A stretch of DNA of 64,000 nucleotides. Source: Polytrichum commune. Taxonomy: Eukaryota > Streptophyta > Polytrichopsida > Polytrichales > Polytrichaceae. How positions within the stretch are numbered: the first letter of the stretch is position 1; each line of letters begins with the position of its first letter. This document shows positions 950 to 30,900 of this stretch, piece by piece. The stretch spans positions 27,356,144-27,420,143 of the forward strand of contig OX485809.1 in the NCBI GenBank assembly GCA_950295325.1, written 5' to 3'. A program made the position numbers and the translations under genes. The notes beneath the pieces are model-generated. The model had not been told where the DNA came from and did not search any database. It saw nothing but the letters and a program-made list of their open reading frames with translations.

Positions 950-961
950 CACTAGAAGAAT
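950..961 (+). repeat. CACTA left terminal inverted repeat
   Basis: CACTAGAAGAAT, a perfect 12-base match to the reverse complement of 27991-28002. It is flanked on the left by the target duplication AGC (947-949). Confidence 0.93.
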
Positions 962-1084
962 TTCAGCAATAAACAACTGTGTTTAATACTCTAAAACAAG
1001 TAATAAAGGACAAGAATGACTGTAAATTTTTTAGTTATTATGGACAAGTTGTAACGGACATATAGTGATTGTGGACATGACATG

Positions 1085-1480
1085 AACTCCACGTCAACTT
1101 CATCCAAATAGAGCACGGATGAAGCTCATTAGCCACGTGGCTCCGACGTGGTAGCCACTTGCTGACTAGGCCGCCATGATGGCATCCTTGTCACCATCTA
1201 TGTGGCAGGGCCTTCGAGGATGTGGCATTAACATGGGGCTATGTGAGCTTCATCCACGTGTCATTATGTCATATTTACATGTGGGAAAACCGTAACATTC
1301 GCATAATGCCACGTGTGAAAATGCGTAGTCATTCTCTAGTTGGATACAAGTATTTATTTGCCACGTAGCATACACGTGGCGGCATGCCGTGAATTGCATG
1401 CCACATCATCTTTGGTGATATGGCCATGTCCCACTTGGAGATGCTGCCACGTAGCTGCCAATAGTGCCAGGTGGACTTCA
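1085..1480. repeat. Subterminal cluster of CCACGT motifs
   Basis: About ten copies of CCACGT/ACGTGG-type hexamers, many as GCCACGTGG or close variants, lie in 400 bp just inside the left end. Single copies of CACGT also occur near the right end (27270-27910). CACTA elements typically carry short subterminal motifs bound by the tnpA product, so this is a likely binding array; that role is inferred, not shown. No coding sequence is seen from 962 to 2128. Confidence 0.6.
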
Positions 1481-1485
1481 TAGTA

Positions 1486-2434: not shown

Positions 2435-5400
2435 CTTGCAAATTATGCAACAAAAATAAATTCAACCTTCGGAACCTATAAATCAATCAAGTTGGAGTTA
2501 AGTACTTACCCGATGCACATTTGGTCCTTCAATCAACGCGTTGTCAAGTGCTTTCACCGTCCTTGTTCGACGCTCCTTCCCTTGTTTTGCCTGCGCTCAA
2601 ATCCAATATATAAAGCCCATTAGTGAATTCAATGTGAACATAGGCAAGGGGACATTGCAAAGTGTGAACCAGTAGTTCACAACTCCCCTAACCTGACAAC
2701 GGAGGATGCCCCGACAAGGATGTGTCTGCAAGTTTCAGCTTTGAGCTCCTCGTTGTCCTCCCACCCGCTTGTACATTTTGCGAATGATCCCCAATTGCCT
2801 GCTTCGAATTAGGCAACACACTGCCATGTTTGTGAACATCAAGACTATCAACTAGGCCTTTCAAAAGAGGCCACAAACCAAATCTCAGGTAATTGTTATC
2901 ATCTGCAAGCTTTGTGATGTCTTCCACATAGAATGGAGGCGGGATAATGATGTTCGCAACTGGATTGCACTCCACCATAGCTCGGTGGTGGTCGATGATC
3001 ACTGTATTGCCCTCATTCCATTCTGGCCACATCTCCCACACTTTGGACAATGGTTTCTTCCACCTTGACGCCCCAACATTCTCACTAACTTCCTCACATT
3101 CCTTTGCTGACCATATGAACACAGGTTTGTGGCTACCCAAGGCATTAAACTTCCGCAACATCGAAGCCACAACATCTTCCATGTTTGATGTGCTCTTGAT
3201 TCCCCAAAAAGCAACTCTAAAATTTCTAAAGCATTTGTCTATGAATTCAACAAGCCATGGCCTAAACACCATCTGTCGTGTCAAGGACCGCGTAGTCACA
3301 CGGATTGACGTGTTAGGATTTGGCTCCGTCAAAAGACTGCAATCTAAAAGCGTGCCATGGACATTAAAAATCAATAACTTAACTGGAAAGTTGGTACCCA
3401 TTCTCTCAATGTCACTGCTCACCTGATCTGTTGGATGAGCCGATTGACTGCCACTACCACCTACTCTGTTAGGGGAATTTGGCTTATTTTTCCGCCTTGG
3501 TTTAGTGGGAGTAACTCTTTTCCGAGGTGACAATGGCGGAGCCATTTCCACATTCTCACTTACTACGCACCTACCTTCTCCATTGGCTGACCCTCCACTC
3601 CCACCCTCCACGGCCAATGCAATCATAGTCTCACCATCACCACGTCCCTCTATGAGCGTATCACTCCCTGCAATCTTTGCACAAACATCAAGGCCTTCCT
3701 TCCCATTAGCTTGGATGGGAGTGGGCTCCCCAACCGCTGCAGCTTCACCTTCCATGATTGCACCTGCAAGAGTCTCAAGTGCCTCTAATCCCACTACCTT
3801 GCTAACGCCTACCTCGCTAGCAACCTCCGCACTCCTACCACCACCCATCACACCCTCCCTATTCAACTTAGGCACATTAGTGGGAGCCTCAGATTCAATC
3901 ACCTTGGACATTGGGTTTAGGGTGGTGTCACCTGGACTACCATCCCATGAATTCAAAATCGGTTCTGAACTAGGCATATGGGAGTTAGTGTTTTGGGGTG
4001 TAGGTGACTTCGGGTCGCATCCAGTCATTGGGTTTCCTATTTTCTCCATCATGATGGCGAACATTGATGAAAGGTTATTGAGGACGACGGTGTTTTGTTG
4101 AGACGTGTGCACGAGGTCGGATAACTGCTGCTTGAACTCGTTTTGCGTGCTCTCAACCATGCTCATCCGTGTTGACAACCTCCCGGAAACCCCTTGCTGT
4201 GCACATACCCACCATACATGATTTAGAGGGGTTCAAAATAAATATGCTGGATGTTGAAGAATTGCACATGAATGCAGCTAAGATCCAGCATAAACACAAC
4301 CATAGGGCAGAATGCTGCTACATCTCAGCCTACATACTGACAACCATGGATTCAGGTGGATGCATTAGTATGTTAATACATTTGAGTTGACTGCTCTTGC
4401 AGCATTAACCTAGCATGTGACGTAAGGTAAACTCAACTTATATGAATGTGACATTACTACAAAATTACAGCAATATGACTAAAACTTACCACATTAACCC
4501 AACATATATGACTGTGAAATTACTACAAGATTACAGCAATATGACTGTGAACTGACTACATTAACCCAACATTATGACTATGAACTGACTAGATTAACCC
4601 AACTATATGACCACTCACTTACTGCAGACTAACAGAAATTGACTCAATTCAAGAATGAAAGCAATATACTACATCAGCTCAATTGAAAAACCTAGCTTGC
4701 ACCCAGAAGTTCACAATGGCAGTCTGTAAATTAGGAATGAGTGATACTGCGACTAAGACAAATGTCATCTGTGCAATAAATGAACATAAGAAATGACCCT
4801 TGCATAAAATGAATGTGGCTACATTAACCCAAGCAAAGAAATGAACTGACATATATAAGGCTTGCAAGAAATCTACTGACTATATTAACCCACCTATATG
4901 ACCACTCACTTACTGCAGACTAACAGAAATTGACTCAATTCAAGAATGAAAGCAATATACCCACAAGTTCAGCGTCAGTTCACAGTGGCAGTCATGGAAT
5001 TATGAATGACTGATGCTGCAACCCAGACATATATAATCCTGACAATAAATGAACACATGGGAATGACCCTTGCAATCAATGAACTGACTACATTTACCCG
5101 AGCAAGAAATGAACTGGCATATATAACCCTTGCAAGAAATGAACATAACCCCAAGACACCCAAAATACTTAGGCATGTGTGTCTCAATACTTACAGATGT
5201 ACAAGCTCAAGTCTGCTCAGACTCTTGGAGATCTTCCGCGATTTCAGTAATCCCTGGGCTCCTTTGCCTCTTCCTCCGCTGTCATAGCAATGCACCTTAG
5301 CACCGTCAGCTCAAATGGGATTTAATAAATGTACAAAGAGAATTGCAAGCTATGGAGTTGTTAGGTTACTTACCAATTGTGCCTCTTTTCCAGCCCTTCC

Positions 5401-8400
5401 AGTCCTCCCCACATTCGAGGTGTTTTTCACTTGCTGCCTTGCTTTCGCCATCATCTGCGCCTTTTGTTCTGTCTCGGGCGCCGACCAATATTTACATAGC
5501 TGTGCCCATTGATCTGGTTCAATGAAAACTGGGCATTCTTTTTTGCCAGACATATACCATCCTTTCATTTTGGCCCTCTCTGTTTTCATCTGTCTTTTGA
5601 CTGCATCTTTGAAGCCCATATCTGAAAGCCTATGTCCCACATACTCAAACTCATTGTCTATGGCAGACCTCAGCTTCTCCACAGAGCTAGGATGCTGGAA
5701 CTTCCACTTTAGTACGCTTACATCCAAAATTCGAGGAACTAGACTGCGGAGCGCCTCATCAAAGGCATTTTTTCTTTCACAACCGCCATCTATGCCGCCA
5801 CCGACTTTCACTCTCAGTGTATACGGTTTTTGGCCTCCAGAACGCCTCAAATCCACATTTGTTTCTGCCTCCTTCCTACTGGCTCTCCGTGTCGCTCTTG
5901 CTTCACTCTCTGCCTTTACCTTAGACTGATTTTGATGGTGTTCTTCCGCAGGTGCTGGCGGGGGAATCCAGTGGTTGGGGTATGGTTGGCAACATGGCCC
6001 CGGATGGGTAGGGTATGGTTGGTAGCAGTGATGAGTGGACCCATGTGGCTGTTGCATCCACGGTGGTTGGTGCCAATTGGGGGGCCATTGATTCTGTGTT
6101 GATGGTGCTGTGGAGTGGTGAACTTGTTGTGCTGCAACCTAACACACACCACATCAAAGGATTAGTTATGGGTGTATAATGGTGTATATAATGGTTGAAG
6201 CTAATATATATGTTTATACACTTAGCAAATGACACACAATTGATGAATTACTAACTGCAAAATTACTGCACCCTGACTGCAAATTAACTTTAAAATTACT
6301 GCCGATTGACTACAAACTAACTGCAAACCAACTGCAAACCAACTGCAAAATCACTGCAAGATTTTTAAGCAATCCCTTAACACGTACCTTTTTATCTGGA
6401 GACCTAAAAATTTTTCGGGCTCGTTTTCGCTTTGTAGCACTTTCACCAGCCAGAGCATGAGCGTCTTCGTGTACAGACTCAGAGTCCTCAGAGCAGTCTG
6501 CAATTTCCAGCAAGTTAGATTTTCACAATGCAGCGAAGGAATGCGAGGAACCAGACCACAAGAATCTTCACTTTAATAACAAGCAACATTCCTAATTCAT
6601 ACAAGCGCTAATCTGCTTCAAGGAACGAAACTAGGCCCTCAGTTGCATTTGAGAAGTATCTCCCTATGTGGCATGTTTCAAATACTAATAGAAGCAACAT
6701 GTGATGATGTCAACAACACACAGCTAGCTTCCTAAATACACTTTAGATCTATTCAGGTTAGCACTAATTGGATCATTAGATTATAGTTTTTAGGGGTACA
6801 TATTTATTCAGATTTTGAGCAAAGCACAACATGTCACTTTTCTATGAGAGAATCTTCACGAAATTAGCATTTCAAGACCAAAGTGTCCAACCTGTTTATC
6901 GACTACAGTACCAGCACAGAGGTGCAGACGTGTCTTCTATGAACTTAATAGTAAAACAGGGATCCAGGAATTCTTGATGTAGAAAACTCTAAGCCCATTC
7001 GAACTTTACAACAAGGAAAGCTGATTTGTAACCCCTATGCATCATCTGCTCACATGTGGCAGAACCGGTTGAAGTTCAAGCCTGCAGGCAATTTCAAGAC
7101 TGTGGAGTTTCAAGACTTGTGATTCAACAGGGAATCTCCTACCTGAAAGGACCCGAAAGTGTGATTTCACATCGAAACATAAAACATCATATTTGGGCCC
7201 TACATGCTGATCACATGCACATAAGATAGCAATAAAGACATGGGCTCTCGCATGAGACTTGTGAGAACGAAGGAATAGAGTACTCGTCATAAGGAAAAAA
7301 GCTTAGTCGTTAGGAAATAGCTTAAAAAGCTAGCTATGAGGAAAATCTAACCCAGCTTTTTCTAGGGTTGTGAACTGATAAAATACATGCGGTCCCCCAT
7401 CCTACCGCCGAATGGTGGCCGGCAAGAAGGATGTGGATCCCAGGGGTGCCAAGCTTCTGAATTCGCCCTACCTGGTTGCAAAATTCAGATATAACTCGGA
7501 AAGTTCAAGGTGTGTAAATTGTAAGAGCTTGATCAGAGGTTACTAGAAATCCAACGTCAATTGTGACTTAGCAGAATTACTCACAACATTACAAGCACTT
7601 TGCTTTCAACTCAATACATTTACAGGTGCGAGGCGTGGTCGAAGCTGGAAACTCCCTATATTGTGAAATCTTCAAGAATCACAAGTCCAACTGCACTGTG
7701 ACTTGCATACAAGCGCCACTAGCTAGCCTCCTGAAGACCCACTTCCAGAAAATTCTTTAAAAAAAGAAAGCCAGAAACGAGGGAGATGTCTTTCCATAAC
7801 CACCTAACCTAACGTAGATGTGCTTGTCCAAGTGCACAAATTGAAGAAACGGCAATATCTTTCAGCCTCCTAGTTGAACTATTCAAGCTATGATCACCTA
7901 ACAAAACTTGTGAGGTATTCAGATGCGCGAAAAGGCAAGTTTGGGACTATGCTCTACCTTTTTATTATTCTACACATGGATCACATCCATCAGGGGCGCT
8001 TTACACTATGGCTGAAGGTCAAGAGGTGGGCAAAGGCCGTCGCAATTTAAAATGATTATTTCTTGAAGAAAGCGACGGATTTTCGAAGGAAGTTTGAGTC
8101 AGACGGGAATGAAATCCCAAACTATAATCGAGAAGCTCTCACCCTAGACTTGTGACTAAACCCTAGACAAGTATTGTCGCGCACCTCTCCATGAGGAGTG
8201 CCCGAAACACCATGGGCACAAGGGGGACCCCGGAGTGACACCCGGGACTTGTGGCGCCGTTGGTGAGAGGGCCCAAGTGATCCTAGTGTGGGTGAGGGCC
8301 CCGGGCGTTGGGAACGCCTCCCACCCACGAAGACTAGGAGGCACAAGGGTAAGGCCATGAGCTATGCGTAGCTCATGGCGTGGTGATTCTAGAATGCTAA

Positions 8401-10276
8401 AGATCACCTCAATCGGAGGTGTGAGCTAGGAGTTATGGCCATTTGAGTGGGGTGCTGTCCCGGGACAGCGCCCTGGTACAGCAGTGCCTGGGAGTGATTC
8501 CCGGGACTGCCAAGGTTCAAACAGGCATAACTTCCTCATGACTTGCCCGAATGGGGCAAGCGAGGAGTCCATCGGCATCTACGTGAAGCGTAGATGAGGA
8601 TGGAGTGGTTGGTTGTTATGATCAGACATCATACAAGGAAGTTATGATGGTCTGAAGCTGCTGGGGGGTTCTAGGCCCAGCAGCTAAAGGAAAATGTCCA
8701 CTTGGCCCCAACTCTTGGTAGAGAGACAAGAGGTTGGTTGGCGGTGGGCTAGGGGCTCCGTGTAGAGTCCTAGAGGCTTATATGGGTGAGGTGGTGTGGC
8801 CTCACCCACCCGAGGCCGAACGGCACGGCCTCCATGGGCATTGGCCCATTGTGAGGCCATAGTTGCCTAGTATGGTTCGGGTTGTTGTAGTGTTGCTCCG
8901 GCAACGCGATGATCAACATAGGATTGGACTTCCATGGATGGAAGTCCACATTGGGGAAATGGGTTACCGATTAAGGGGTGCGTGAGTCCCGAAAGCAAAG
9001 TAGGAGGGTTGGTTCCCTCCTATGAACAATTGGTCCGGGGTAAGAGGAGCTATCCATTAGCATGGCGGAATGCGAATGGTTAGCGCTCGTAACCTTTGCT
9101 AGAAACGAAAATTGGCAAGATTATTAAGGGACCTAGCAAGGGTTGCGACAAGTATGCACATCCAGTGAGTAGGCTATGGAAAAAAACAAGTCAGTGAGCA
9201 ATATAAAGCAAGTCAGTGCCCAAGCATACAAGGATTCAAGCAAGATTACATGCCCAACAAAACCCTTCAACATGGAACCCACCCAAATCCAAATTCGAGC
9301 AAGAGAGAAATAGTGGGAGAGTTACCTGGGATGTACTCATCCTCCGTCTTAGACTCGTCTGCTTCCTTGGCGCGCGGCATTTCAGAAGGGCCACCCTCTG
9401 TACCCTTCTTTGCAACGCAAGCTCTGTTGCTCCTGCGCGGGGGCATCAATGGGTTCGATGCGGATTCACGGCGTACTCGGGGGTTTGGTGCGGTGCACAA
9501 ATCACGCCTGCTTCACAACCAACCCACCTTCAGCTAGCACTAAACCCTAAACTATCTTCACCTAGCACTAAACCCTAAGCCATGGATTCACGTGCCTGAG
9601 GAAAGCACGCTCCCACAGCGAGGAGGTACGTGCGGCAAGAGAAGTGGGAGGGCCACAGACGGGCGTGTGTTCTGCACACTCGTGGACGTCTGGGAGAGAG
9701 ACGAAATCTCCACCGTCCACGTGTTCACCCCCCCGTTAATCGCACCTAAACCTAGGCTCTTGCGATCACTAAAAAATTACTATGCTAAATGCAGCTGCTC
9801 CGCGCATATTTGGAAATTAAACCTAATTACAAGTGTGAGTGCACATAAACCTCGGAGAAGCATCATTACACATGCAAGACTAGCTGCTCACCCTAAGTGC
9901 ACAGGAAGTATACACACTTCTGTGCACAATTACATACACACTTAAGTTACATACACACTTACATACACATTGACTACACTATAGTAGCCCACGCACACCA
10001 GCGAATACGACAAGAATCAAGAATAGCACAAGAGACAAGTGTTGGAGATGCTTACAGTGCTGTGGCCGCAGTCTTCACTGGCTTGAGGTACTCCTGCAAC
10101 GCGGCTACCCGTCTGTCGCAGGCGAGCTCGTAGTCCCCTTTGAGTGCGGCTTCACCTCCCTCTACGGCAAAGGTATGACTACTCTCCCCTCTTTTTGATC
10201 CTTCATTGTTGCGAGGTTTTAAAGGGGACTGCACAGAGTTCAAGCTGTGCTCCACAACATCTGCAGAACCACCCAT
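2129..10276 (-). CDS. tnpA-like CACTA gene, eight exons, with embedded NIF/FCP1-like HAD domain; one internal TGA
   Basis: Gene model, minus strand: exons 10276-10056, 9507-9326, 6497-6388, 6138-5374, 5278-5195, 4196-2693, 2580-2510 and 2434-2129. Every intron is GT-AG and every junction keeps frame, giving 1080 codons plus the stop. In order it encodes a basic N-terminal region with an NLS-like KRKRARK, a Ptta/En-Spm transposase_24-type domain, a coiled-coil segment, a degenerate HAD phosphatase fold, and a C-terminal TNP1-like domain. In CACTA elements such proteins bind subterminal repeats and help the transposase. The only internal defect seen is TGA at 5207-5209; a CGA codon there would restore frame, or splicing could skip that 84-nt exon without frameshift. 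The first ATG at 10276 is 236 bp from the gypsy insertion, which therefore separates the gene from upstream promoter DNA. The acceptor at 2581 is the weakest junction. Confidence 0.75.
2693..4196 (-). CDS. Exon 6 of the tnpA-like gene: coiled coil plus degenerate NIF/FCP1-type HAD domain
   Basis: This single exon codes about 501 residues. It starts with a Gln/Asn-rich helical segment (STRMSMVESTQ..., FAIMMEKIG), followed by a low-complexity Gly/Glu/Thr region and a basic patch (PRKRVTPTKPRRK). Residues about 264-440, numbered from a TTG codon at 4178, form a NIF-family HAD fold. Markers are KLLIFNVHGTLLD, FRPWLVEFIDKCF, VAFWGIKS, FIWSAKEC, WKKPLSKVW and NTVIIDHHR...NIIIPPPFY. Plant NIF/FCP1 relatives read DLNG or DxDGT at motif I and DD at motif III; here they are N-V-H-G-T and D-H, so catalysis is probably lost. 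The first in-exon ATG is at 4166, but the open frame continues upstream to the acceptor at 4197-4198, which supports an internal exon. Confidence 0.8.
4602..5160. repeat. 290-bp tandem duplication inside a tnpA-like intron
   Basis: A block of about 65 bp starting ATATGACCACTCACTTACTG at about 4604 recurs nearly unchanged at about 4894, an offset of 290. Weaker similarity continues through both units. The duplication lies in the intron 4197-5194. It is rich in ACTGACTAC and ACATTAACCC phrases related to the subterminal motifs. Confidence 0.75.
5374..6138 (-). CDS. Exon 4 of the tnpA-like gene: Ptta/En-Spm transposase_24-type domain
   Basis: The exon encodes 255 residues with phase 0 at both ends. 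The first third is rich in Pro, His, Tyr and Trp. The second half carries a plant CACTA transposase_24-type domain: LKWKFQHPSSVEKLRSAID, then GFKDAVKRQMKTERAKMKGW, then PDQWAQLCKYW and QKAQMMAKARQQVKN. The acceptor lies at 6139-6140 and the donor GTAAGT starts at 5373. This family supplies the DNA-binding accessory protein of En/Spm-like elements. Confidence 0.8.
6498..9325 (-). other. Large intron of the tnpA-like gene, holding a solo LTR
   Basis: Donor GTAAC is at 9325 and acceptor CAG is at 6498-6500 on the minus strand; the joined codon (G + AC) keeps frame. Apart from the solo LTR at 8175-9150 no gene, RNA gene or clear repeat is seen. The short open frames in this stretch have no recognisable domain. 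Confidence 0.55.
8175..9150 (+). mobile_element. Solo LTR of the TGTCGC chromovirus family (976 bp)
   Basis: It starts TGTCGCGCACC and ends GGTTGCGACA. The 5-bp target duplication AGTAT is present on both sides (8170-8174 and 9151-9155). No internal element sequence follows, so this is a solo LTR left by LTR-LTR recombination. Related copies occur between 46.5 and 63.5 kb. The LTR is packed with stem-loops, for example the 11-bp-stem hairpin at 8354-8379. Open frames within it repeat in every copy and are not genes. Confidence 0.95.
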
Positions 10277-10511: not shown

Positions 10512-10516
10512 CCAAT

Positions 10517-12555
10517 TGTGAGCCCAAAAGGGTGCCCACATTTAGTCTTAGACCCTTGAAACGTTAGTTGATGCACTTTGAAGTAGCATGTTACTTCACA
10601 AAAATATAAAAAGAGTGAAATGTTAGTCTTAGAAGTACCATGTTGTAAGAGGCTAGGATGTGAGTTGTTATTGTGTTTTTACCTTCGGAAGGATTTGAGT
10701 GAATGAGGATAGGTAAGGAGAACTTGGATTGAGTAGTTAGTGAGTAGGCTAGTACAAATGGATGGAGACAACCAAAGTGACTCAAGAGGCAAGTGCATTC
10801 GAATTGGGATGAATGGAGGATCACATGGAGCGCACAAGTGGACCACCTCATCATGGCCACTTAATGGGGAAGGCCCAAGGAAGAATGCAAGGTGGAGGAT
10901 AAGCAAATTCTCAAAGCACCAATCAAATCACGAGTTAAGCATGGTGGTTTGAATTAAGTGGTGAGCGACGATTTGGGAAAGTAAGGGGAGAAAGTTATGG
11001 CGGCGGAAAGCGAAGGAGGCTAAGTTTGGGTTGAAGCATCCCAAGTTTGGTAAAGTGTGGTAGGTAGAAAGCCAAGGCTAGTTAAATGTTCGAATTAGGA
11101 TCCTTGTTGATCATTTGAGGGAGGAAGGCTTAGAAGATAGGATTGGCGCCTACTAAGTAGGAGGAAATCTCAAGGGCTTATCGTGAGCCTTGAGGGTGCT
11201 CACCCCCTCAAGCTTACTATATAATCCCTCATTCTTCCCTCACTCATCCTCTCTTTCCTTTGTGCTCCAAGGCACCCCACGAGTTATAAGTGTGGGTGTG
11301 GGAAGCCATATTGGAGCACATGTGTGTGCTTAGTTTTTAGTTTGAGAGCCAAGGCTTGTTAGCCTTGAAGAGGGCTTGACCTCTTGGTAGAATTAGTGTT
11401 GACGTGAAGGATTTTAAAGTTAATTCATGATTCCAATTTGTGGTACTTAAAGTTCATGTTTTGAATACACGTGGTTGCAAGTTCCATGTTTAAGAGTTGA
11501 GCACTTGATGTTGTGATGAGTGCAAAAATATACTTGTGTGGATTAGTTAGTCTTAGTGAAGTTAGGAAATTCTCTCTCCCCCTCTCCTCTCTACGATTTT
11601 AGGATTTTAGGATTAGAGAAGAATTGTGTGATTAGAAAGGGGTTGTTAGTAGAATTAGGGAAATTAGGTAGGAAGATTAGTTAAGGGCTTGAATAATTAG
11701 TGAGGTAGTTGGGGATTACAACTACAAAGTTGTGGGTTCATGAAGGAGCTGGGTTTATGAAGGAGCTGGGTTTGTTTAGTTAGAAAGTAAAGAGCTGGGT
11801 TTATGAAGGACCTGGGTTTGTTTAGTTAGAAGCTAAGGAGCTGGGTTCATGAAGGAGCTTAGTAAATAGCCTACCTAATTAGCTCATAGACAAGTAGTTA
11901 GTTACATTATGCTAGTGAGTGTTATGTGTGGCTTTCACAAGTAAATGTATTTGAGATTGACTATAGAGAATAGTGTTTTTTTTTACACTTGCATCCTCTC
12001 TTTAAAAATAAACCACGTGCACAAATTAATGGAGAATGTGGAGCACTCTCGCGATGGCAAGACAAAGGAAGCAAAGACCAAAGGTGCGAGGGAGAGATTG
12101 ACATAAGTCACATAAGTATTTCTTAATACTTAAAGGCTTATGTACGGTATGGAGACACCAAGTGAGACCTCTTATAGTAGCGATACGGAATACACAAGTG
12201 ATAGTTCAAGCGGTAGTATAGAGTCAACGGCACGGACTCCATTTAGGAGAGGGATATCCTTAAGGGCTTGTGTAGCTAAAGCGGCCGGATGGACGTTAGA
12301 AGCAAACAAAGACAAAATAGCACCCGAGCATAAGGAGGTTAAAATAACATAGTTAACTTGTGCATTCTCCACATACGTATTGAAATCGTACATTGAGTTG
12401 TTAAAAGTGAAATTCCAGTTAAATCCAAGACCACTTGAAGGGTGAACCTTGCACTATGGACTCATCCAAGTCCAAATCCAATACCGCGGAGGAATGTGAG
12501 CCCAAACCCACTACTCGGACTACGGACGCTTAAGGGTGGGGGGTTTGGCCTCACA
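10517..12555 (+). repeat. 5' LTR of the intact gypsy element
   Basis: It starts TGTGAGCCCAAAAGG and ends GGCCTCACA; the outermost bases form the short inverted repeat TGTGAG/CTCACA. It contains a TATA-like box at 11218-11225 and a run of GGAGCTGGGTTTATGAA-type tandem units at about 11745-11850. Short ORFs recur identically in the 3' LTR and are not supported as genes. Confidence 0.97.
11218..11225 (+). promoter_or_regulatory. TATA-like box in the gypsy LTR
   Basis: TATATAAT is followed by a pyrimidine-rich stretch (CCCTCATTCTTCCCTCACTC), a typical plant LTR promoter layout. Transcription would start about 30 bp downstream. The same sequence is at 20467-20474 in the 3' LTR. Inferred from position and sequence only. 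Confidence 0.5.
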
Positions 12556-12559
12556 TAAT

Positions 12560-12577
12560 TGGTGCGTCCGCCGGGAG
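12560..12577 (+). other. Candidate primer binding site
   Basis: TGGTGCGTCCGCCGGGAG begins four bases after the 5' LTR (spacer TAAT). It starts with TGG, as expected for pairing with a tRNA 3' CCA end, and resembles the TGGNGCCGTTGCCGGG sites of some plant gypsy elements. I cannot name the tRNA. Confidence 0.5.
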
Positions 12578-19400: not shown

Positions 19401-19704
19401 AACCGATTTGGAAGCACTTGACGAAGGGAGGAGAATGGCGGCTCAACATATTGAGGCAATCCAAAGAAGGAGAAAGATTACTTTCGACAAACGACATAAG
19501 AGAAGGGCCCTAACACCGGGAATGATGGTCATGATTCAAGACGCACGAAAGCTTGAATTTCCGGCGAAATTCAATGCGGTATGGTTAGGACCTTACCTTG
19601 TCTATGAGGTCTTTCCTAATAATTCAATTCAATTGGAAACGTTGAATGGTGAGCTCTTTCCTACCCGTACATCGGGAAGTAGATGTAAGGAGTACCGAGC
19701 TTGA
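13465..19704 (+). CDS. Gag-Pro-Pol polyprotein of the Ty3/gypsy element
   Basis: One uninterrupted 2079-residue frame encodes everything for reverse transcription and integration. Domains in order: retrotransposon gag (about 150-330), a CCHC zinc knuckle (C432, C435, H440, C445) with a second C-rich motif after it, and an aspartic protease with DGGSS at D852. These are followed by reverse transcriptase (about 1219-1400, with FVDD at 1374-1377 in place of YxDD) and RNase H (YCDAS, D1522). The integrase has an HHCC finger (H about 1730; C1768, C1771) and catalytic D1800, D1861 and E1897, a D-X60-D-X35-E spacing. No chromodomain follows; the protein ends shortly after a GPYLVYEVF motif. All key residues seen are intact, so the element may be competent. 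The ATG at 13465 is the first in this frame and gives the full gag. Confidence 0.97.
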   Translation: MQGRTRSQKPSLIVGLEKSTRKRRSSKISDRLEQDNVRIESCLNVEPRTRSILNTLELGAQLEEEITPSKLSGETSSENYTLREEFPVEVDRGLLNSSPVTMAEERGMDPPPIPPIPPKPPIPPIDPLVRPRGLPIVVPQNLAAMDMPSHLPKFYGTKDEDPSRHMERYIERLASFLITDPGYWLVWFPTTLEGEAYEWYRDHAEGHFRGWEQLQREFLNEFRPEVGQSTALRALSSLKQGREEEISAYIRRFDLVCTRFVGTMLNDDTLKQFFIQGFFKSGTIRGVLERNPLTLADAKRAARDIENLDKDHERLWRREDELIPQFIPIRPRVVAVEPAKYENQIPYAIVDTGPRPLAVREPAPLLALPAPRTDPHLEEVERRLGASQLGFQEAMIKQMQSLTDQMSLMIRSQQPGPPPPVESGRHSSGLWCVQCGQPGHTRQFCRSGQNRDQRGNGNPPQQNQRGQAPPHYGNGSNRGPQPRGQGGQNLEKKEFHPFCGRWHAQGQCWSEGQEFNCSNCGGSHPSDTCRQPDKIINVPYPVANPQQQARDNMRGARPQGVPANELRPPNLYYDHSNARQTFHPPAGLQTTTGYIPIQNRQGVPPNGSNGRQAPPTDPGPSNSQDVRFMDGVLEATCDDMLPLPTRIGEEQSQWPPHTNAITYELVKGKGVVEEAPALAVTTRARRGDAPLEVRIGEQGNYSSDEEINLSELDRVARRATKDVERENIILQDRERTNAVHDLDNSDVGEWEGPGVPVDEFDVVGNSKVERSTGYDLWADLSTLKADITFGQLLEISPTARKTLKEGMPIHKRMRKVKAKIAARIQSQGGRDVKAIEIEVVIVDKVVPNVLVDGGSSLNILPEDTMKKLGLGLTGPSPLVINMANQSSTTPLGMIKDCRMTTGGEEYLVTFHVIKMHSNKDTFPILLGRPWLRMANAMVNWGGPKPSITYGPEGNRVIVSIGSLEGWMKKEMYLPLEKEIDDLNENEIGKALVGVVHPEGQRVVIDSGSGSLGPNFYNYGDNGDYAQWLREYPESEVDVMVTFHQVGLGSEFPSVSLGEGSLLEPCEVLTEEEWVSGGLTPWVDDVEEGEVSLIHVDGTQEEDVIIESSKLEEPLHFKTTSTGIVVGQDVKDYPNVPSDWYRNKEEQAHVSEADWRYVDVKLKNGKTRQMKMGSKLGEKEVREYSNLVDEFSDTFAWSYDELKGIPREMVEHRIPLIPGARPIRQKERRMNPQLQLLVKAELERLLKAGFIKPVEITDWVSPMVLVKKKNGKLRVCVDYRKLNSCTQKDHFPLPFITLLLEEVGGHSRYTFMDGYAGYNQISIALQDIHKTAFTTPWGTFVWVVMPFGLCNAPATFQRLVMYIFTDLLFKSMTVFVDDFSTQSNVDDHLHCVREALVRCRKMRLALNPDKTFLGVNKGVLLGYVVSEKGREPDPDKIAAISDLATPTNSKGISKLLGHVGWYRELIPNFSKIAVPITHLLKKDVKFEWTDACQKAFEELRDRLSTYPVLIPPNWGKPFHVYCDASNVAIGSALCQATGEKEKDQPIAYASKQLTPAERNYSTTERECLAMVFSVKKFRHYLMCNPVVFFVDHMAIKYLINKAELSGRLARWVLLLEEFDYTVEYKPGRMHLQADHLSRLSEEIGKNPVNDMLVDDSLFVVTSTPEWYAGIVEFLTTHKLPKEWTKEERRKVRVNSRQFVVVGHRLFRRGSDGILRRCVSKTEVEAILIACHDSACGGHFSGQLTGQKILRAGYFWPTLFKDAHDYVRKCDACQRYARDDLRMEMPLHVSLPLIPFEKWGIDYVGEVHPQSSKGMKYIVVATEYLTKWAEAKAVKTDTAEHAATFMYENIISRFGVPKILVSDRGTHFLNDLIREMTEKFKIDHRKTTPYHPQTNGQTERVNGILVSILRKTVIDSKRDWDTKLTAALWAYRTTYKVTTRATPFSLVYGLEATLPIEYEVESLRVAVSTRLTESQSLRNRLTDLEALDEGRRMAAQHIEAIQRRRKITFDKRHKRRALTPGMMVMIQDARKLEFPAKFNAVWLGPYLVYEVFPNNSIQLETLNGELFPTRTSGSRCKEYRA

Positions 19705-19765
19705 CTAGGCAACTTACCCTTGGAGCAAGAGATGTTTGGATTCATCCCCCGATGGTCGCCAATTA

Positions 19766-21804
19766 TGTGAGCCCAAAAGGGTGCCCACATTTAGTCTTAG
19801 ACCCTTGAAACGTTAGTTGATGCACTTTGAAGTAGCATGTTACTTCACAAAAATATAAAAAGAGTGAAATGTTAGTCTTAGAAGTACCATGTTGTAAGAG
19901 GCTAGGATGTGAGTTGTTATTGTGTTTTTACCTTCGGAAGGATTTGAGTGAATGAGGATAGGTAAGGAGAACTTGGATTGAGTAGTTAGTGAGTAGGCTA
20001 GTACAAATGGATGGAGACAACCAAAGTGACTCAAGAGGCAAGTGCATTCGAATTGGGATGAATGGAGGATCACATGGAGCGCACAAGTGGACCACCTCAT
20101 CATGGCCACTTAATGGGGAAGGCCCAAGGAAGAATGCAAGGTGGAGGATAAGCAAATTCTCAAAGCACCAATCAAATCACGAGTTAAGCATGGTGGTTTG
20201 AATTAAGTGGTGAGCGACGATTTGGGAAAGTAAGGGGAGAAAGTTATGGCGGCGGAAAGCGAAGGAGGCTAAGTTTGGGTTGAAGCATCCCAAGTTTGGT
20301 AAAGTGTGGTAGGTAGAAAGCCAAGGCTAGTTAAATGTTCGAATTAGGATCCTTGTTGATCATTTGAGGGAGGAAGGCTTAGAAGATAGGATTGGCGCCT
20401 ACTAAGTAGGAGGAAATCTCAAGGGCTTATCGTGAGCCTTGAGGGTGCTCACCCCCTCAAGCTTACTATATAATCCCTCATTCTTCCCTCACTCATCCTC
20501 TCTTTCCTTTGTGCTCCAAGGCACCCCACGAGTTATAAGTGTGGGTGTGGGAAGCCATATTGGAGCACATGTGTGTGCTTAGTTTTTAGTTTGAGAGCCA
20601 AGGCTTGTTAGCCTTGAAGAGGGCTTGACCTCTTGGTAGAATTAGTGTTGACGTGAAGGATTTTAAAGTTAATTCATGATTCCAATTTGTGGTACTTAAA
20701 GTTCATGTTTTGAATACACGTGGTTGCAAGTTCCATGTTTAAGAGTTGAGCACTTGATGTTGTGATGAGTGCAAAAATATACTTGTGTGGATTAGTTAGT
20801 CTTAGTGAAGTTAGGAAATTCTCTCTCCCCCTCTCCTCTCTACGATTTTAGGATTTTAGGATTAGAGAAGAATTGTGTGATTAGAAAGGGGTTGTTAGTA
20901 GAATTAGGGAAATTAGGTAGGAAGATTAGTTAAGGGCTTGAATAATTAGTGAGGTAGTTGGGGATTACAACTACAAAGTTGTGGGTTCATGAAGGAGCTG
21001 GGTTTATGAAGGAGCTGGGTTTGTTTAGTTAGAAAGTAAAGAGCTGGGTTTATGAAGGACCTGGGTTTGTTTAGTTAGAAGCTAAGGAGCTGGGTTCATG
21101 AAGGAGCTTAGTAAATAGCCTACCTAATTAGCTCATAGACAAGTAGTTAGTTACATTATGCTAGTGAGTGTTATGTGTGGCTTTCACAAGTAAATGTATT
21201 TGAGATTGACTATAGAGAATAGTGTTTTTTTTTACACTTGCATCCTCTCTTTAAAAATAAACCACGTGCACAAATTAATGGAGAATGTGGAGCACTCTCG
21301 CGATGGCAAGACAAAGGAAGCAAAGACCAAAGGTGCGAGGGAGAGATTGACATAAGTCACATAAGTATTTCTTAATACTTAAAGGCTTATGTACGGTATG
21401 GAGACACCAAGTGAGACCTCTTATAGTAGCGATACGGAATACACAAGTGATAGTTCAAGCGGTAGTATAGAGTCAACGGCACGGACTCCATTTAGGAGAG
21501 GGATATCCTTAAGGGCTTGTGTAGCTAAAGCGGCCGGATGGACGTTAGAAGCAAACAAAGACAAAATAGCACCCGAGCATAAGGAGGTTAAAATAACATA
21601 GTTAACTTGTGCATTCTCCACATACGTATTGAAATCGTACATTGAGTTGTTAAAAGTGAAATTCCAGTTAAATCCAAGACCACTTGAAGGGTGAACCTTG
21701 CACTATGGACTCATCCAAGTCCAAATCCAATACCGCGGAGGAATGTGAGCCCAAACCCACTACTCGGACTACGGACGCTTAAGGGTGGGGGGTTTGGCCT
21801 CACA
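19766..21804 (+). repeat. 3' LTR of the intact gypsy element
   Basis: It has the same length and apparently the same sequence as 10517-12555. It is preceded by GTCGCCAATTA rather than by a clear polypurine tract, which is unusual. Confidence 0.97.
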
Positions 21805-21809
21805 CCAAT

Positions 21810-22898
21810 ACACGCCGAAACTTGCGCAATTCATAGCCGAATGCTCTGGCTCTCAGAGTCGTTGTTTATGTCGCATCAATGTGAGGCGTACCTAAACTAC
21901 GTTGTAGCATTCTGCATATAGGGTAAGTTTCAACGGCACTAAAAACCCCTAGCATATACGTTTAGGAGTACAGAATGACTATAGAACGAGTATATAATGA
22001 CTATGGAATGACTATAGCATGATTATAGAATGTCTGTAACACGACTATAGAACGACTACAAACTGACTAGGGAATCACTATAATTCTGTTCCGCAAGAAA
22101 TACAAAATGACTAAACTCCAACTACATATCAAGGCAGGAATGACAAATTTGCAACTACATTAGTACTGCACAACTTAATCAAAATGTCACAGGACACCCC
22201 TTTCCAAATGGCCAAACTGCGCCCAAGAAAACATTCAAACAAGAATAGCGAAGCATAGAACATTGAAGCCGGGGTAGAAGATGTCCAAGCAGAAATGAGA
22301 CAGCTACGCTGTGCAGAGGTAGAGCACAGCAAAAGCATACTGCAGTGTGCGCGTGGCCACCAGCTTCCTTCTTATAAGTACTTGGGGAAGTTTTAGTAAA
22401 TTCCTCTAAAATGATCGCTAATTTTCCCGCAATCTTGAATTTCAACCGGTTGTTTCTCAAACGTAACTGGTCCATCCGTAACTAACTGCCGGTTCTCCCC
22501 GATCATAGGTGTAGGCCTAAGAGACAGGACTCCGTCAACTTCATAACTTGCATATTCATATAAATCATGGTGTGAATTTGGATGTACAGATTAGCCATGT
22601 ACTCCAAGCCATCTTGAGTTCAAAAATGTGCATGATTATATAATACTATATCACAGTGAGACACTAAAAAGCCCCATCATTTTTATTGTCATTTGTAAGT
22701 CTCTTGGTGTCACTTATTTTCAATTTTGCTGAATTTATGAAACTGTCTAGTTGAATTAAAGAGAGAGAGACGAAAAGAGCTTGAATTTGTATATATCTAC
22801 AAAATGCCTTGCTTGTACCGTCACCGTCCACGTGCACTTAGGTAGGTACCAATTTACATTAGCATACTTTCGGTCAATTCAGTGCCCTTACATACACC
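21810..22898. other. CACTA interior between the divergent genes; motif cluster
   Basis: No gene is recognised. At 21970-22110 there are about eight copies of (A)ATGACTATAGAA-like motifs matching the subterminal array. A dispersed repeat copy lies at about 22385-22512. This stretch is the likely 5' region of the TNP2 gene. Confidence 0.5.
22385..22512 (-). repeat. Dispersed repeat, copy 1
   Basis: Its reverse complement is similar (roughly four of five bases by eye) to 38207-38331. Shared phrases include GATCGGGGAGAACCGGCAGT, TTTGAGAAA and GATCATTTT. The family is not recognised. Confidence 0.6.
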
Positions 22899-25800
22899 AT
22901 GCTAACCATGCATGTGTTGGCTGGTAATGAAAATTATGGACGTGCTCAACAACTTAGAATGGAGCAAAGGAGATTACCCGTTGGCGACAAGAGACGGCAA
23001 CAATTGAGAGATGATAGGCTATGGAAGAGGGAGCAGCAGAGGGCAGTATTCTACAATTTGAAACGCATACGGTGTCCATGCTCCAAGTGCAAGGGCCGTG
23101 TCCAGTGCTCATTGGAAAAGGTGAAGGAGCACCTCATCCTTTATGGCAGAGAACCTGCTTTTAGACTATGGAGAGGCCCAGGTGACAGGGATTCATCCGA
23201 TGAGGAATGGGAAAGTGAGTTCAAGACTGCGCCTAGAACACATGAAGATGGGAGGATGGATGTAGGCCTCGAAGTGCGCTCAATGGTGGAGGATGTATTC
23301 CAAGAAATAGACCAGCGAGATGACCCATTGGAAGAAACATTGCAGGACATCGTTATGGACGCATTTAATGTGGTTGATGGTCTCCAAGATGGTGGATGTG
23401 ACTCGGGTGATGAAGAGGATGAAGAACCCATGGCAGACGTAGGCAATGCGGATGACAAAGACGATGCCCCACATGATTTAGAGGAGGCAATTTAGGAACT
23501 GTACGATGGCGCAAAGTCTTCTGTATTAGCAGCAACGATCTTGATCATGACCCTGTGCACAATCCACGGAGTTAGCAACAAGTTTGCCGATCAAGTATTC
23601 GCTCTTTTCCGCCTACACCTTCTTCCCGGTGAGAATAGACTACCCAAGAATTATCATGCGGCAAAATCACTGATTCGGCGGTTGGGGCTAAATTATAACA
23701 CAATTCACGCTTGTGTAGGAGGATGTGTGTTGTTTAGAGGGCCACTTGAAAATGCTGTAAATTGTCCTAAGTGCAATGCTCCACGGTATAAAGACGTGGC
23801 ATAACATAAAAGACCGTGGAAAGTCCTTAGACATTTCCCATTGATTCCTAGACTAAAACGCATGTTTCGAACACCCGCAATATCCGAACTCATGACATGG
23901 CATTCAAAAAATAGGAGCTCAGATGGCATGGTTAGACATCCATGTGACTCCAAGGCTTGGCACCATGTGCACGATAATGTAGATCCCACTTTTGGCCATG
24001 ACGCCCGAAATGTACACATGGGACTTGCTGCTGATGGTGTTAATCCTTTCAAGCTTCAACGCTCTACTTGGTCGACATGGCCAGTGATGTTGCTTAACTA
24101 CAACATACCACCTTGGTTGACAACCAAGAAATTCTTTATCATGCTAGTCTTGCTTATTCCAGGGAAACAATCTGTTACTGCACAATTTTTTGACGTGTAT
24201 TTGGCCCCATTAGTTGAAGAATTGCAACAGTTATGGAGAGGGGTGTTAGCCTATGACATCTCGAAAGAGGTCGGGTTTCGGACGTTCAATTTGAGAGCAA
24301 TCCTATTGTGGACAATCCACGACTTTCCAGGGTATGGAACAGTGGCAGGTGTTGCGCACCAAGGCTACGTTGCATGCCCAGTTTGTGGGCCTGATTTTAG
24401 GGGGAACATTCCATTGAGCTTGGGAAACAGACGTATACGGACACACGAAGATGGCTTCCACAGGGTGACCCATGGAAATCATGTAGAATGAAAGATCACT
24501 TTAACGGCCGCACGGAAGAACGAGGTCCTCCTAGAGTCGTCACTGCAGAAGAGCAAGAACTAAGGGGTCTGCAATACCAAGAGTGGCTTGCAAATGGGAA
24601 CAGAGATGGCAGTGATGGAGATCCATCAAAAATACATGGAGTGAAACGGAGAAGCATTCTGTATGATTTGCCATACTGGAAGGTATTTTTTTATTCACAG
24701 TCCATTTGAATTTTCTGCACCCTAACCCAGCAGGCTAGCAATTTGAGAACAGAGAACCACTCGAATCCATTTTGTCATAGAATGTTGCAGGTTCAGAGTC
24801 CACATCAAACATCTGTTGCTTACGTTGTACTCTGCAATGATGTAATCTCACAATGAGTGTTCCTGACTGTGGAATGACTATATTTAAGTCCAGCTAAAAC
24901 CCCAGACGACTATGCAATGACTATCATATTGTACACGTAGGCAACAAAATGACTAATCTGGAACTGCACATGAAGAGAGTATGTTGCTTCTTGCAATTGC
25001 ATTAATCTGGTACTTTAATGTTTGATTCGTTGTTATGAAACAGGACCTTCTTATTCGATACACACTGGATGTTATGCATTGCGAACAAAATCTCTCAAAG
25101 AACATATTGAAGACCATAACGGGGCATAAGGACACTGTGAAAGTTAGACGTGATCTACAACGTAGGGGAATTAAGAAACACCTTTGGCTAACCATGAACC
25201 CAAAAAACTCTGGAAAAATGTTAAAACCAGCAGCCCCTTATGTACTGACCAGCGAGGAGTTTGACATATTTGCCCGCACCATTGAGTCTTTGAAAACACC
25301 TTCAGGCCACATATCCAACATAGGTCAATACATACGGAAGAAGAACTTTGGGGGACTGAAGTCGCATGATTACCATGTACTCATGCAGCAAATATTGCCG
25401 CTAGGCTTAAGGGGTTTGTTGAAACCAGGCCCTAGATTGGCAGTGATGAGGATCTCGAAGGTCTTTCGGAGAATTTGCAGCAAAGTGTGGAATCCAATTG
25501 AGTTTGAGGGTCTTCGTCTTGACGTTGCTCGGAGCATGGCACTCTTAGAGATGCATTTTCCCCCATCGTTTTTTGATATTATGACACACTTGGTGTATCA
25601 CCTTGTGGAGGAGCTGGATTTGTGTGGACCTGTTTCTACAAGATGGATGTACCCTGTTGAGAGGTACATGAAAACATTGAAACAATATGTGCGCAACACG
25701 GCGAGACCAGAGGCCTCCATGGCAGAGGGTTACGTGAAGGATGAATGCCTTGGGTTCATCACAGAATACTTGTAGAGGTTTGAGGTTGTAGACAGACGAG

Positions 25801-26813
25801 TTTGGGACGCAGATGAAGAATATGGAGATGCAGAGGAGGTTCTGGAGGGGGCAGGGTCCAGTTATGTCATGACTCCTCCTTTGAGAGAACTTGCTCATCA
25901 ATATGTTTTAACAAACATCTCACTCTTGGAACCCTGGCATCGGTGAGTATGATGCTGCGTAGTCACTCTGTAGTTAGTTTTCACTGAAATATGACTATAG
26001 TAGGACTACATCATCGTGGGCATGCACTAATGGAGGTTCAATGACTGTAATATGACAATTTTATATTACACTTGTGTGATTGCTCCGCAAGTCGCATACT
26101 AATGAATCCATGTTGTGTTCAGGCAATGGAGGGATGCACATGATGCAAATCGCAACATGGAACCATTTGATGTTTGGGTTAGGAAAGCAGTGCACACCCA
26201 TCCACACGATCCCAACAACGGGGACGACATGGATAGAATTTTGTTGTGTAGTAGGCCATCCCAAAAAGCAACACGTTACACGAGGATGCGTGCATTCGGG
26301 TACCACTTTCGAGTGGAAAATTCACAGTCCGCATTGTTGCAAACATACGACAGTGGAATTGCTTCTATATTTGAAGTACCAACATTTGACTCTCAATCAG
26401 AGGTATCCCTAAACTATGTGGGAGTGCTACAAGATATATTGAAGTTGGATTATGGTCCATTGCGAACTCCGGTGATTCTTTTTCGGTGCGATTGGTTGAA
26501 AAGAGAAGATAATCGTGGAAATCCAACTTATGTACGGGACGATGCGGGGTTTATGGTGGTGAATTCTCGGCACAAAGAACCCAAGATGTCGGACCCGTTC
26601 ATTTTCCCAAGTCAAGCCACACAAGTATTTTTCTCCAATGATCTCAGAAAACCCGGTTGGAAGGTAGTATTGCGAGCGGAAGCACGTTCAAGGAGGGAAG
26701 AACAAGACACATCTGATGTTTTCATAACAACTAGTTTAGAAGAGCAACGCATGAGTGCTGCAGCTCATGTGCCCCCCCCCTCCAAAAACTGTCTCTCTAG
26801 TAGGTGCCATTGA
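22899..26813 (+). pseudogene. CACTA TNP2-type transposase, three exons, disrupted
   Basis: The translated pieces give, in order: a transposase-associated N-terminal zinc region (RCPCSKCKG...HL), a transposase_21/TNP2 core (KVLRHFPLIPRLKRMF, NVHMGLAADGVNPF, WTIHDFPGYG), the joint LPYWK|DLLIRYTLDVMHCE, a DUF4218 region and a DUF4216 region (LQDILKLDYG, FRCDW). Introns are 24683-25043 and 25943-26122; both are GT-AG and rejoin conserved sequence. Defects: TAG at 23493, TAA at 23802 and TAG at 25773, plus a one-base frame change near 24480. The CACTA transposase cuts at the CACTA ends; this copy should not make a full protein. The ATG at 22899 is the first in frame, but an upstream exon is possible. 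Confidence 0.9.
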
Positions 26814-27990
26814 ATTATCAGACAAAGATAATTTGCTGGCAGTCGCAAAGTTTTAAGTTGACATTATATTTTGTATGGGCTACAGTAGTTTTTGTGCTAT
26901 CATCCTCAACAATGACTTAGAAATTGCAGTAGCCGTGTATGACTACACTATGAGTCAAATATGTCAATATTATGACGTTATTGCGACAACACTATTCCTA
27001 GTGATAACATTGATTACGTGGCATGGAATATAAGACTAATGAGTTAATCTTCAATTCGGTTGGGATACTAAATTGTTATGCAGAAGCAATCTTTACGCTC
27101 ACCCTTGACCCATGAAGGTTATTGATGTTCTACACACCACGCCATGTGTGTATGAATGATTAAAACATACACGATATCAAATGCTACAAATGATATTCAC
27201 ACCCTCCCTAAGTCCACCCTAATTAAACCCTAAATAAATTGATCCATAATCCTAATTCAAGAGTAGCCCAATTAATGAGGCACGTCAAATATTTTTCCTT
27301 ATAGGATATTCGTATTTTTACTAGTAGTATGCTCAAAAAGTTTCATGCCATTTGGAGGTCGTTGGCATAGTAGGAAGGAATTAATCCACACTTAAAATAA
27401 AAGTATTTTGCAATCTGGTAGCATGTTTAATAATGACTTGTCATAGTATGTAAAAAACTTCATGCCACATATACAAGAACAACATGAAAACGAGACGGAA
27501 ACAACTAGTATTGGGTATAGAGTGGAGGAGTCTATGCCACCTCATCACCCTAAACCTCTGAGAGTCATTGACGTTGTCACAACAGTCATTATTATGACAC
27601 GTCATTGTTACTGTCCACGTTGCTCATATAAGATTTCCTATTTTCCACATCATTCAATAGCCCTAAATGCCACGTAAAAAATGAATGTTAATATAAAGTG
27701 ATAGTTTAGACATCGTCGGTGAATGACAACAAAAGAATGACTTATGAATAACTAGGTCATGATCCCATATCCAAGTCATACACGAGTGGATGGAGTGGAT
27801 GATGAACGCTGGACAGAAAATGACTATGTTGTGAGGTCTTCAACATAGTTCATCAATGAGTCAATTGAATGACTTAAAAATGACAACCATGTTAGACACG
27901 TCAGCACATGTGAACCCGGTTTGCGCCGTAGTCATTTAATAAGTTGTTTAGGACAAATAGTCATTGATAGCATGGTCGGAATGGACAAGG
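26814..27990. repeat. Right subterminal region of the CACTA element
   Basis: No gene is seen. ATGACTA or TAGTCAT heptamers and close variants recur at 26930-27000 and densely at 27690-27960, with several CACGT motifs (27270, 27600, 27670, 27898). This mirrors the left subterminal region. Confidence 0.6.
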
Positions 27991-30900
27991 ATTCTTCTAG
28001 TGAGCCAAGTCATCAATTTTCTCCATAATCGACTCAAGCGTTTCCCCATGGAGAATTTGACCTCCTTGACCACCACTCTGTCACAAAGATAAATTTTCTC
28101 CAAGGGCGTCGCAGAGGCCTTACCCAAGGCCTTTGGTATCTTCTTCAAGCCTTCACACCCTTGTAAGTAGAGCGAGGTCAAAGAGGTCAAGTTACCCAAC
28201 GCCTCCGGTATCTCCTTCAAGCCTTTACACCAACTTAAGTCGAGTGAAATCAAGGAGGTCAAGTTACCCAACGCCTTTGGTAGCTTCTTCAAGCGGCTAC
28301 ACTTACTTAAGTTGAGGGAGGTCAAGGAGGTCAAGTTACCCAATGCCTCCGGTATCTCCTTCAAGCCTTCACAATAACTTAAGTCGAGGGAGGCCAAGGA
28401 GGTCAAGTTACCCAACGCCTCCGGTATCTCCTCCAAGCCTTGACACCAACTTAAGTCGAGTGAAATCAAGGAGGTCAAGTTACCCAACGCCTTTGGTAGC
28501 TTCTTCAAGCGGCTACACTTACTTAAGTTGAGGGAGGTCAAGGAGGTCAAGTTAACCAACGCCTCCGGTATCTCCTTCAAGCCTTCACAAGAACTTAAGT
28601 CGAGGGAGGTCAAGGAGGTCAAGTTACCCAATGCCTCCGGTATCTCCTTCAAGCCTTCACAATAACTTAAGTCGAGTGAGGTCAAGGAGGTCAAGTTACC
28701 CAACGCCTCCGGTATCTCCTTCAAGCCATAACACCAATGTAAGTCGAGGGAGGTCAAGGAGGTCAAGTTACCCAATGCCTCCGGTATCTCCTTCAAGCCT
28801 CTACACTTACTTAAGTTGAGGGAGGTCAAGGAGGTCAAGTTACCCAACGCCTCCGGTATCTTTTTCATGCCATAACAATGATTTAAGTCGAGGGAGGTCA
28901 AGGAGGTCAAGTTACCCAATGCCTCCGGTATCTCCTTCAAGCCTTCACGCCAACTTAAGTTGAGGGAGGTCAAGGAGGTCAAGTTACCCAACGCCTCCGG
29001 TATCTCCTTCAAGCCATAACACCAACTTAAGTTGAGGGAGGTCAAGGAGGTCAAGTTACCCAACGCCTCTGGTATCTCCTTCAAGCCTTCACACCAACTT
29101 AAGTTGAGGGAGGTCAAGGAGGTCAAGTTACCCAATGCCTCCGGTATCTCCTTCAAGCCTCCACACCCCCTTAAACCGAGGGAGGTCAAGGAGGTCAAGT
29201 TACCCAACGCCTCCGGTATCTCCTTCAAGCCTCTACACCCACTTATGTCAAGCGAGGTCAAGGAGGTCAAGTTACCCACCGCCTTCGGTAGCTTCATCAA
29301 GCCTCTACACTGACTTAAGTTGAGGGAGGTCAAGGATGTCAAGTTACCCAACGCCTTTGGTATCTCCTCCAAGCCTTCACACTTACTTATGTCAAAATAA
29401 GTCAAGATGCTTAAGTTGCCTATGGTGCTTGGTAGGGATCGCAAATTTTTGCAACATCTTATTCTCATTTTGTATAAGAATTTCAATTGTCCAATGCTAT
29501 CATCAATATGATGTAGAGTAGATACGCCTTCAATCACCAAAATTTGCAAATTAATATGATTGCCCCATTTGAACATAAATGGATTTGAGGTCATAATTTC
29601 AAAATCACGATTCTCTTGGCAAATCACCATCAAACATTGGAGATTTTTTGATTGACTCAAAATTTTATCCAATGATATTGAACCCTCGAAACCTTGGAAA
29701 CCAAAAAATCGGAGCGAAACCAAAGGTTTTGTAATGTCAAAGTGTGTTTTGAATTCCTTTGTTGGTTCATTGAAAGAAAGGCATTCGATACGCTCCAAAA
29801 CTGTTTGTGTTCTCCCACTCCATGTTGCATCTTGTATTTTCCACCATCGAGTGCCAATATACATGGGGTCTGTTTCCACAATCATACGTCCCATATCCCG
29901 TAATTGATCATGGATTTCATAGACTCCATCTTTGCCAATCTTAACCAAAGACTTATCGTCGAGACGTTTCAACGATTCTTCAAGATTTTTGTTCACATCT
30001 CGCCATAAACGTGATGAGGTCACAACTTGTAATGTATCCATGGGGACCAAATCTTTGCTGAAATGACAACATAGGTCCAAAAACAAGTTTTTTTCTTCTT
30101 GGGTAAGGTCGTCGAAGCTTATCCGTAGGCAATGCCAAACTTCATTGTTATTTTCCGATCCCAACGCTCTTGCCCTTTGTAGTCTTTGCAAAGCTCGCAC
30201 CCAAATGCGTAATCTCTTCAATCCATACAATGTTCCACCCACAACTTTCAAGCTCAAAGGCAACCCTTTACATGCATCCACAATTTTCTCGACAATGTCC
30301 ACCATATGAGATGGTATTTCATATCCTTGATCACCAAAAGCATGCCTAGAGAATAATTTCATAGCTTCGCCTTTGATGAGTTCATCCAAATCTACACGAC
30401 CAACGTCTCCCAGGTTTTCCACAAGGTGCCAATCACGAGTTGTGATGATCATCTTGTTAGTACGTTTGGCTTTGAAGATATCAACATCCATCAACTCATG
30501 AATTTGCGTACTATTGCCAATGTCATCAAAAACAATGAGAGCACTTTTGCTTGTGATTGTTTGGCAAAGACGGGTCCTTGCTTGTACAATGTCTTTCACA
30601 TCATCGACCTTTGCCCCTAAGTTGCTCAAGATTTCTTTGAAAATCTCGATAGTGCCACAATCTTTGTTTTTCATGAAAATAAAACAAATTGCTTCAAATT
30701 GACCACGCATACGTTCCATCACAACTTTTGCCAAAGTAGTTTTGCCCATTCCACCCACCCCTATAATGGCCACTATGGAGTATTTTTCCAATGCTTTCGT
30801 AACCCTTAGGATTCTTTCTTGCATACCAACAAGCTCGTTTCCTCCCTCCTTTGCACTTGTGTCCCCCTTGTGCTCCATAGTACCTATTGTCGGTTCAATG

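Follow-up and report, generated by a model that had tools for sequence, protein, structure and literature searches.

A CACTA transposon inside the 3' end of a PNL-type immune-receptor frame in the moss Polytrichum commune

What becomes of an immune-receptor gene when a large transposon lands in its last codons, and where did its protein end before? The question is raised by a 64,000-nucleotide stretch of the Polytrichum commune genome (contig OX485809.1, positions 27,356,144 to 27,420,143 of the forward strand), the whole of which is hereafter called the window. Here, a CACTA (En/Spm-type) element of 27053 bp, which includes a nested long terminal repeat (LTR) retrotransposon and occupies positions 950-28002 (+ strand, that of its transposase genes), lies inside the 3' end of an open reading frame (ORF) for a nucleotide-binding leucine-rich repeat (NLR) receptor with kinase, NB-ARC and leucine-rich repeat (LRR) domains. 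The presence of the element at this place is real, well supported and confirmed by the present analysis. We consider it likely that it was inserted, with duplication of an AGC target, at the extreme 3' coding end of this PNL-type receptor, and that the receptor ancestrally ended six residues further on.

The element and the receptor frame

The element is bounded by 12-bp terminal inverted repeats, CACTAGAAGAAT at 950-961 (+ strand) and its reverse complement at 27991-28002 (- strand), which are identical at 12/12 positions, and by AGC target-site duplications at 947-949 (left copy) and 28003-28005 (right copy). The window contains 66 CACTA and 81 TAGTG sites, of which only the 950/28002 pair combines CACTA...TAGTG termini, 12-bp identity, a 3-bp duplication and a spacing of 0.3-40 kb; no such pair was obtained in 40 dinucleotide-preserving shuffles, themselves up to 1000 bases shorter. 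The perfect inverted ends and AGC duplications proposed in a sequence-only reading of the window are therefore both present. Short repeats also lie close to both ends: the left 1 kb has 21 copies of AGTCAT (mean 1.43 and maximum 5 in 200 shuffles) and a single, unenriched copy of ATGACT, and the right 1 kb shows a weaker enrichment, with five copies of AGTCAT and four of ATGACT (shuffle maximum 3 for each).

The receptor ORF (27948-32411, - strand; 1487 codons plus stop) ends inside the element. Reading the junction gave what the sequence-only reading had described: Leu is now encoded by CTC, the frame continues uninterrupted through 17 element-encoded residues, TRRILVHSDHAINDYLS, and the predicted stop, a TAA at 27948-27950, is that of the transposon (codons and stop at 27948-28001, - strand). 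Such an open tail is unremarkable, since every entry frame at this end of the element stops within 22 codons (after 1, 17 or 22 residues). When the element and one AGC are removed in silico, the flanks join as TGG CTT TAA, and the frame ends ...KLMTWL-stop at residue 1470.

Concerning the class of the receptor, the protein kinase, the NB-ARC domain and a long LRR region, all above Pfam cut-offs, follow one another in the order kinase - NB-ARC - LRR. This is the composition of the moss NLR class PNL, treated as moss-specific both in the survey describing it (PMC3352924) and where it is named kinase-NL or PpKNL (PMC3991678). Relatives were sought by protein searches including metagenome proteins, in which the best 120 of 783 matches were considered for the receptor, queried as 27948-32408 without its initial Met, and the best 120 of 1125 for a query made of its LRR part. 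The best six relatives in the first set are Physcomitrium patens proteins (33-41% identity), homologous across the kinase and NB-ARC parts, while the Ceratodon matches in this set cover the kinase part only. The PNL survey (PMC3352924) gives phase-0 introns at the kinase/NBS and NBS/LRR borders as a diagnostic trait of P. patens PNL genes. The receptor frame aligns with the P. patens proteins without intron-sized gaps and has no such introns at these borders; the name PNL-type therefore refers to its domains, its gene structure not certifying membership of the class. The frame may have become intronless by intron loss or as a retrocopy.

The LRR region comprises 18 repeats of 24 residues each, as delimited by a regular expression; 16 of them show a mean DNA divergence of 12.7% and a pN/pS of 0.80. 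Outside the plants, a search of GTDB genomes for receptor relatives gave a single locus (L001, in an Algoriphagus metagenome-assembled genome), with a chance-level match of 34% over the P-loop region, and a search of viral contigs gave none.

The native end of the receptor

The most informative relative is P0197, a protein of 268 residues from a metagenome contig of 1177 bp, found with the LRR-part query. It shares the non-LRR C-terminal tail of the receptor, the portion of which right of the element lies at 28003-28124 (- strand), with 29 of 41 residues identical (71%; E 5e-14), and it reads WL-QCSRSK through the insertion point, the protein ending at K. P0197 thus supports an uninterrupted site at the point where the element now lies.

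The displaced old 3' end of the frame, on the other side of the element (925-946, - strand), reads (CT)T TAA TGC TCT TGA TGA AAA TGA. In the register of P0197 this is WL followed by stop-Cys-Ser-stop-stop-Lys-stop: Cys, Ser and Lys agree, the last stop (TGA, 927-925) falls where P0197 ends, and the remaining stops take the places of Q, R and the second S. The corresponding pattern, xCSxxK-stop, occurs once in the 64-kb window, all frames of both strands considered, and this occurrence is the joined flank, where the joining affects only the codon before the join. Because P0197 reads on as QCSRSK, with C, S, K and stop in register, the ancestral receptor was probably six residues longer, ending in WLQCSRSK past the junction, and the TAA at 943-945 may be younger than the insertion.

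The native end had previously been placed at Trp-Leu-stop. The joined flanks do read so, but P0197 has Gln at the position of this stop and ends six residues later. An empty site whose frame did not reach the TAA at 943-945 had also been named as evidence that would speak against that end; P0197 partly corresponds to it, as its frame does not end where the TAA stands, but it is a homolog rather than an allele. For that reason it cannot tell which stop codon the gene used at the time of the insertion. The TAA at 943-945 could already have served as the stop, and the element would then have replaced no more than this codon and the third base of the Leu codon. The TGG CTT TAA of the joined flanks agrees with this, and a member of the family may have gained an early stop before the insertion. 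The Gln of P0197 argues to the contrary, and three stops in seven codons fit untranslated sequence, which the displaced flank became with the insertion; sequence behind an older stop would have the same appearance, so that the TAA may be older or younger than the insertion. On balance, we regard an early stop that preceded the insertion as rather unlikely, though it deserves serious consideration.

Several points weigh against the insertion with a six-residue-longer ancestral end as we favour it. P0197 is only about 66-71% identical to the receptor in the compared parts and was read as protein only. Its end at K could be the edge of the 1177-bp contig, although a stop occupies just this place in the window. 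The 41-residue tail was seen in this one relative among the best 120 of 1125, and the evidence base is the DNA of one genome, from a single accession. As for the 3' end now predicted, AATAAA is absent within 1000 nt past the new stop, where ATTAAA occurs twice and AATAAT once; the plant polyadenylation signal is loose, and the absence of AATAAA says little. A second close relative, P0191 (79% over 318 residues), is without the 41-residue tail and is uninformative on the native end.

Confirmation, separate from P0197, that both flanks belong together comes from the far flank. Decayed LRR repeats lie at 668-924 (- strand), in the orientation of the receptor gene and with one frameshift in the aligned part, showing 67-75% DNA identity to the receptor's own repeats. 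Their alignment score is 108, vs. 20.8 +/- 4.3 in 30 shuffles; in a separate scoring it is 74, vs. a maximum of 26 in 300 shuffles. The position of this relic beyond the junction, in the receptor's orientation, also argues that the flanks were once continuous. The relic is probably old 3' sequence, being located past the point where the P0197 protein ends. For the same reason, the idea that it remains from an LRR protein once longer and truncated by a recent stop was dropped. Further left, 1-667 (+ strand) probably represents the end of a further LTR retrotransposon, in which 606-667 is weakly similar to the nested LTRs (62 bp at 76%); also, 492-657 resembles 42292-42446 (69% identity).

The C-terminal tail itself was not seen at the ends of the relatives P0001-P0006. 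That it could be a frameshifted LRR was rejected: its fit to the LRR consensus in the sense of the gene was matched or exceeded by 786 of 1000 shuffles, and a protein-level score of 32.9 (maximum of 30 shuffles, 25.1) took in residues of the last true LRR repeat. Within 28003-28124, 21 bp resemble an LRR read in the opposite orientation, with 19/21 positions matching (0/1000 shuffles). An old rearrangement, before the split from P0197, may have made the tail.

The new 3' end and the state of the element

Under the insertion scenario that we favour, the transposon would have landed in the last codons of the receptor coding sequence, duplicating its 3-bp AGC target, after which the displaced end (925-946) would have lost its sense codons. 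An unspliced transcript would then be translated through the 17 element codons to the stop at 27948-27950 and, by a further step of inference, its mRNA would be cleaved and polyadenylated inside the right end of the element. The receptor would keep every recognisable domain and exchange about six native residues for 17 foreign ones and a foreign 3' untranslated region (UTR). A more ambitious proposal would be that the CACTA terminus is the working 3' end, that the 17-residue tail is made, and that chromatin or convergent transposase transcription sets the level of full-length receptor, as COPIA4 does at RPP4 of Arabidopsis, in a lineage and with a class of transposon for which no such case turned up in the literature searched; we consider this quite improbable.

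Silencing is one way in which the gene could escape such an outcome. The transposase ORFs, on the + strand, and the receptor gene stand tail to tail, with the ends of the ORFs about 1.2 kb short of the junction. Because these ORFs run toward the receptor's 3' end, antisense reading and silencing are live alternatives: chromatin that spreads from the element, or antisense transcription from the transposase genes, could have left the receptor silent or turned it into a pseudogene. Against this stand the 1487 stop-free codons, with all domains matched, and the state of the transposase described below, whose broken tnp2 frame makes active transposase unlikely, though not its transcription. A silent receptor is, in our opinion, a minority prospect, to be kept in mind.

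The transposase region (22863-26813, + strand) comprises Transpos_assoc (2.9e-8), Transposase_21, i.e. tnp2-type (E 1.4e-54, 23805-24488), DUF4218 (4.9e-32) and DUF4216 (4.4e-13). Transposase_21 is spread over two frames, the remainder of the profile matching in another frame at 22.3 bits, below the cut-off. The gap of about 26 bases between the two, with nine profile positions absent, is too short for an intron, and the transposase is for this reason probably broken. In-frame stops upstream of Transposase_21, at 23493-23495 and 23802-23804, may be due to introns or to damage. For a second, TnpA-like protein, only a weak candidate was found, an ORF at 5350-6138 (- strand) with a sub-threshold Transposase_24 match (20 bits vs. 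a cut-off of 28.7).

The CACTA end could also lie outside the working mRNA, if transcripts stopped upstream of it or spliced it out. The tail begins with GGTAAGG (28124-28118), which by eye, without a tool score, resembles a 5' splice site, and in Arabidopsis some RPP4 isoforms are described as retaining 3' exons despite a 4.7-kb COPIA4 insertion. P0197, however, shares the protein sequence of the tail through the GGTAAGG site, and the frame of the homolog is therefore read without a splice there, which leaves this possibility with little credit. That the assembly wrongly joined the element to the gene can be set aside as extremely improbable: many near-identical repeats are present in the window, but the AGC duplications match, the LRR relic across the element has the same orientation, and P0197 is in register on both sides.

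The nested Ty3/gypsy-type LTR retrotransposon (10512-21809 with its CCAAT duplications, + strand) has its body at 10517-21804 and accounts for 11.3 kb of the 27-kb element, the other sequence amounting to about 15.8 kb. Its LTRs (10517-12555 and 19766-21804) are identical across 2039 bp; because of this identity, and because it lies, flanked by CCAAT, inside the CACTA element, its insertion is recent and that of the CACTA element older. The element also carries an ORF of 514 codons for a NIF (FCP1-like) phosphatase (2688-4232, - strand), with 52 relatives of up to 96% identity, from metagenome-type sources only, scored among the 8000 candidates with most words in common; this ORF may travel with the CACTA element family as a multi-copy passenger. 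A repeat of about 975 bp is found at 8158-9150, inside the element, and at several places in 46.5-63.5 kb on both strands, in many copies mostly of 94-97% identity, and a direct repeat pair of about 290 bp (78% identity) lies at 4584-5140, likewise within the element.

Comparison with known systems

With its CACTA ends, 3-bp duplication, tnp2-type transposase and repeats near the ends, the element has the traits of the CACTA/En-Spm superfamily; in addition, it carries the NIF-type phosphatase ORF and the nested LTR element. Gene-altering CACTA insertions are already known, e.g. in raspberry Ans-1. In the literature searched, no case of a CACTA-ended NLR gene turned up. The receptor has the domain order of P. 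patens PNL proteins, but differs by the lack of an intron in its frame and by its non-LRR C-terminal tail.

The closest parallel is RPP4-ATCOPIA4 of Arabidopsis thaliana, in which, according to two reports, COPIA4 truncated the NLR gene in its 3' part and the COPIA4 LTR holds the gene's polyadenylation sites (PMC10241880, PMC7529245). In both cases an NLR gene has lost its original end to a transposon inserted toward the 3' side. The transposon is an LTR retrotransposon in RPP4 and a CACTA DNA transposon in the moss, and the two receptors belong to different NLR classes and lineages. RPP4 lost a larger C-terminal part, vs. only about six residues in the moss receptor. For RPP4, the transposon-supplied 3' UTR and polyadenylation sites were shown by 3' rapid amplification of cDNA ends and direct RNA reads, whereas for the moss receptor, known from sequence alone, they are predicted only. 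At RPP7, COPIA-R7 also serves as a polyadenylation site in an NLR gene, but it does so from within intron 1, where it terminates a short non-coding transcript, unlike the 3'-end insertion described here (PMC7529245).

A transposon-ended NLR is thus already known from Arabidopsis, and what is particular here is the class of the transposon, the class of the receptor and the placement in the last codons. The locus offers a clean case of a large DNA transposon swapping the end of an immune receptor with the domains untouched and a homolog showing the uninterrupted site. It also carries a caution, as a native stop is unsafe to read from a flank that the insertion has released from selection. If the gene is transcribed, regulation of the RPP4/COPIA4 kind would extend to mosses and to CACTA elements.

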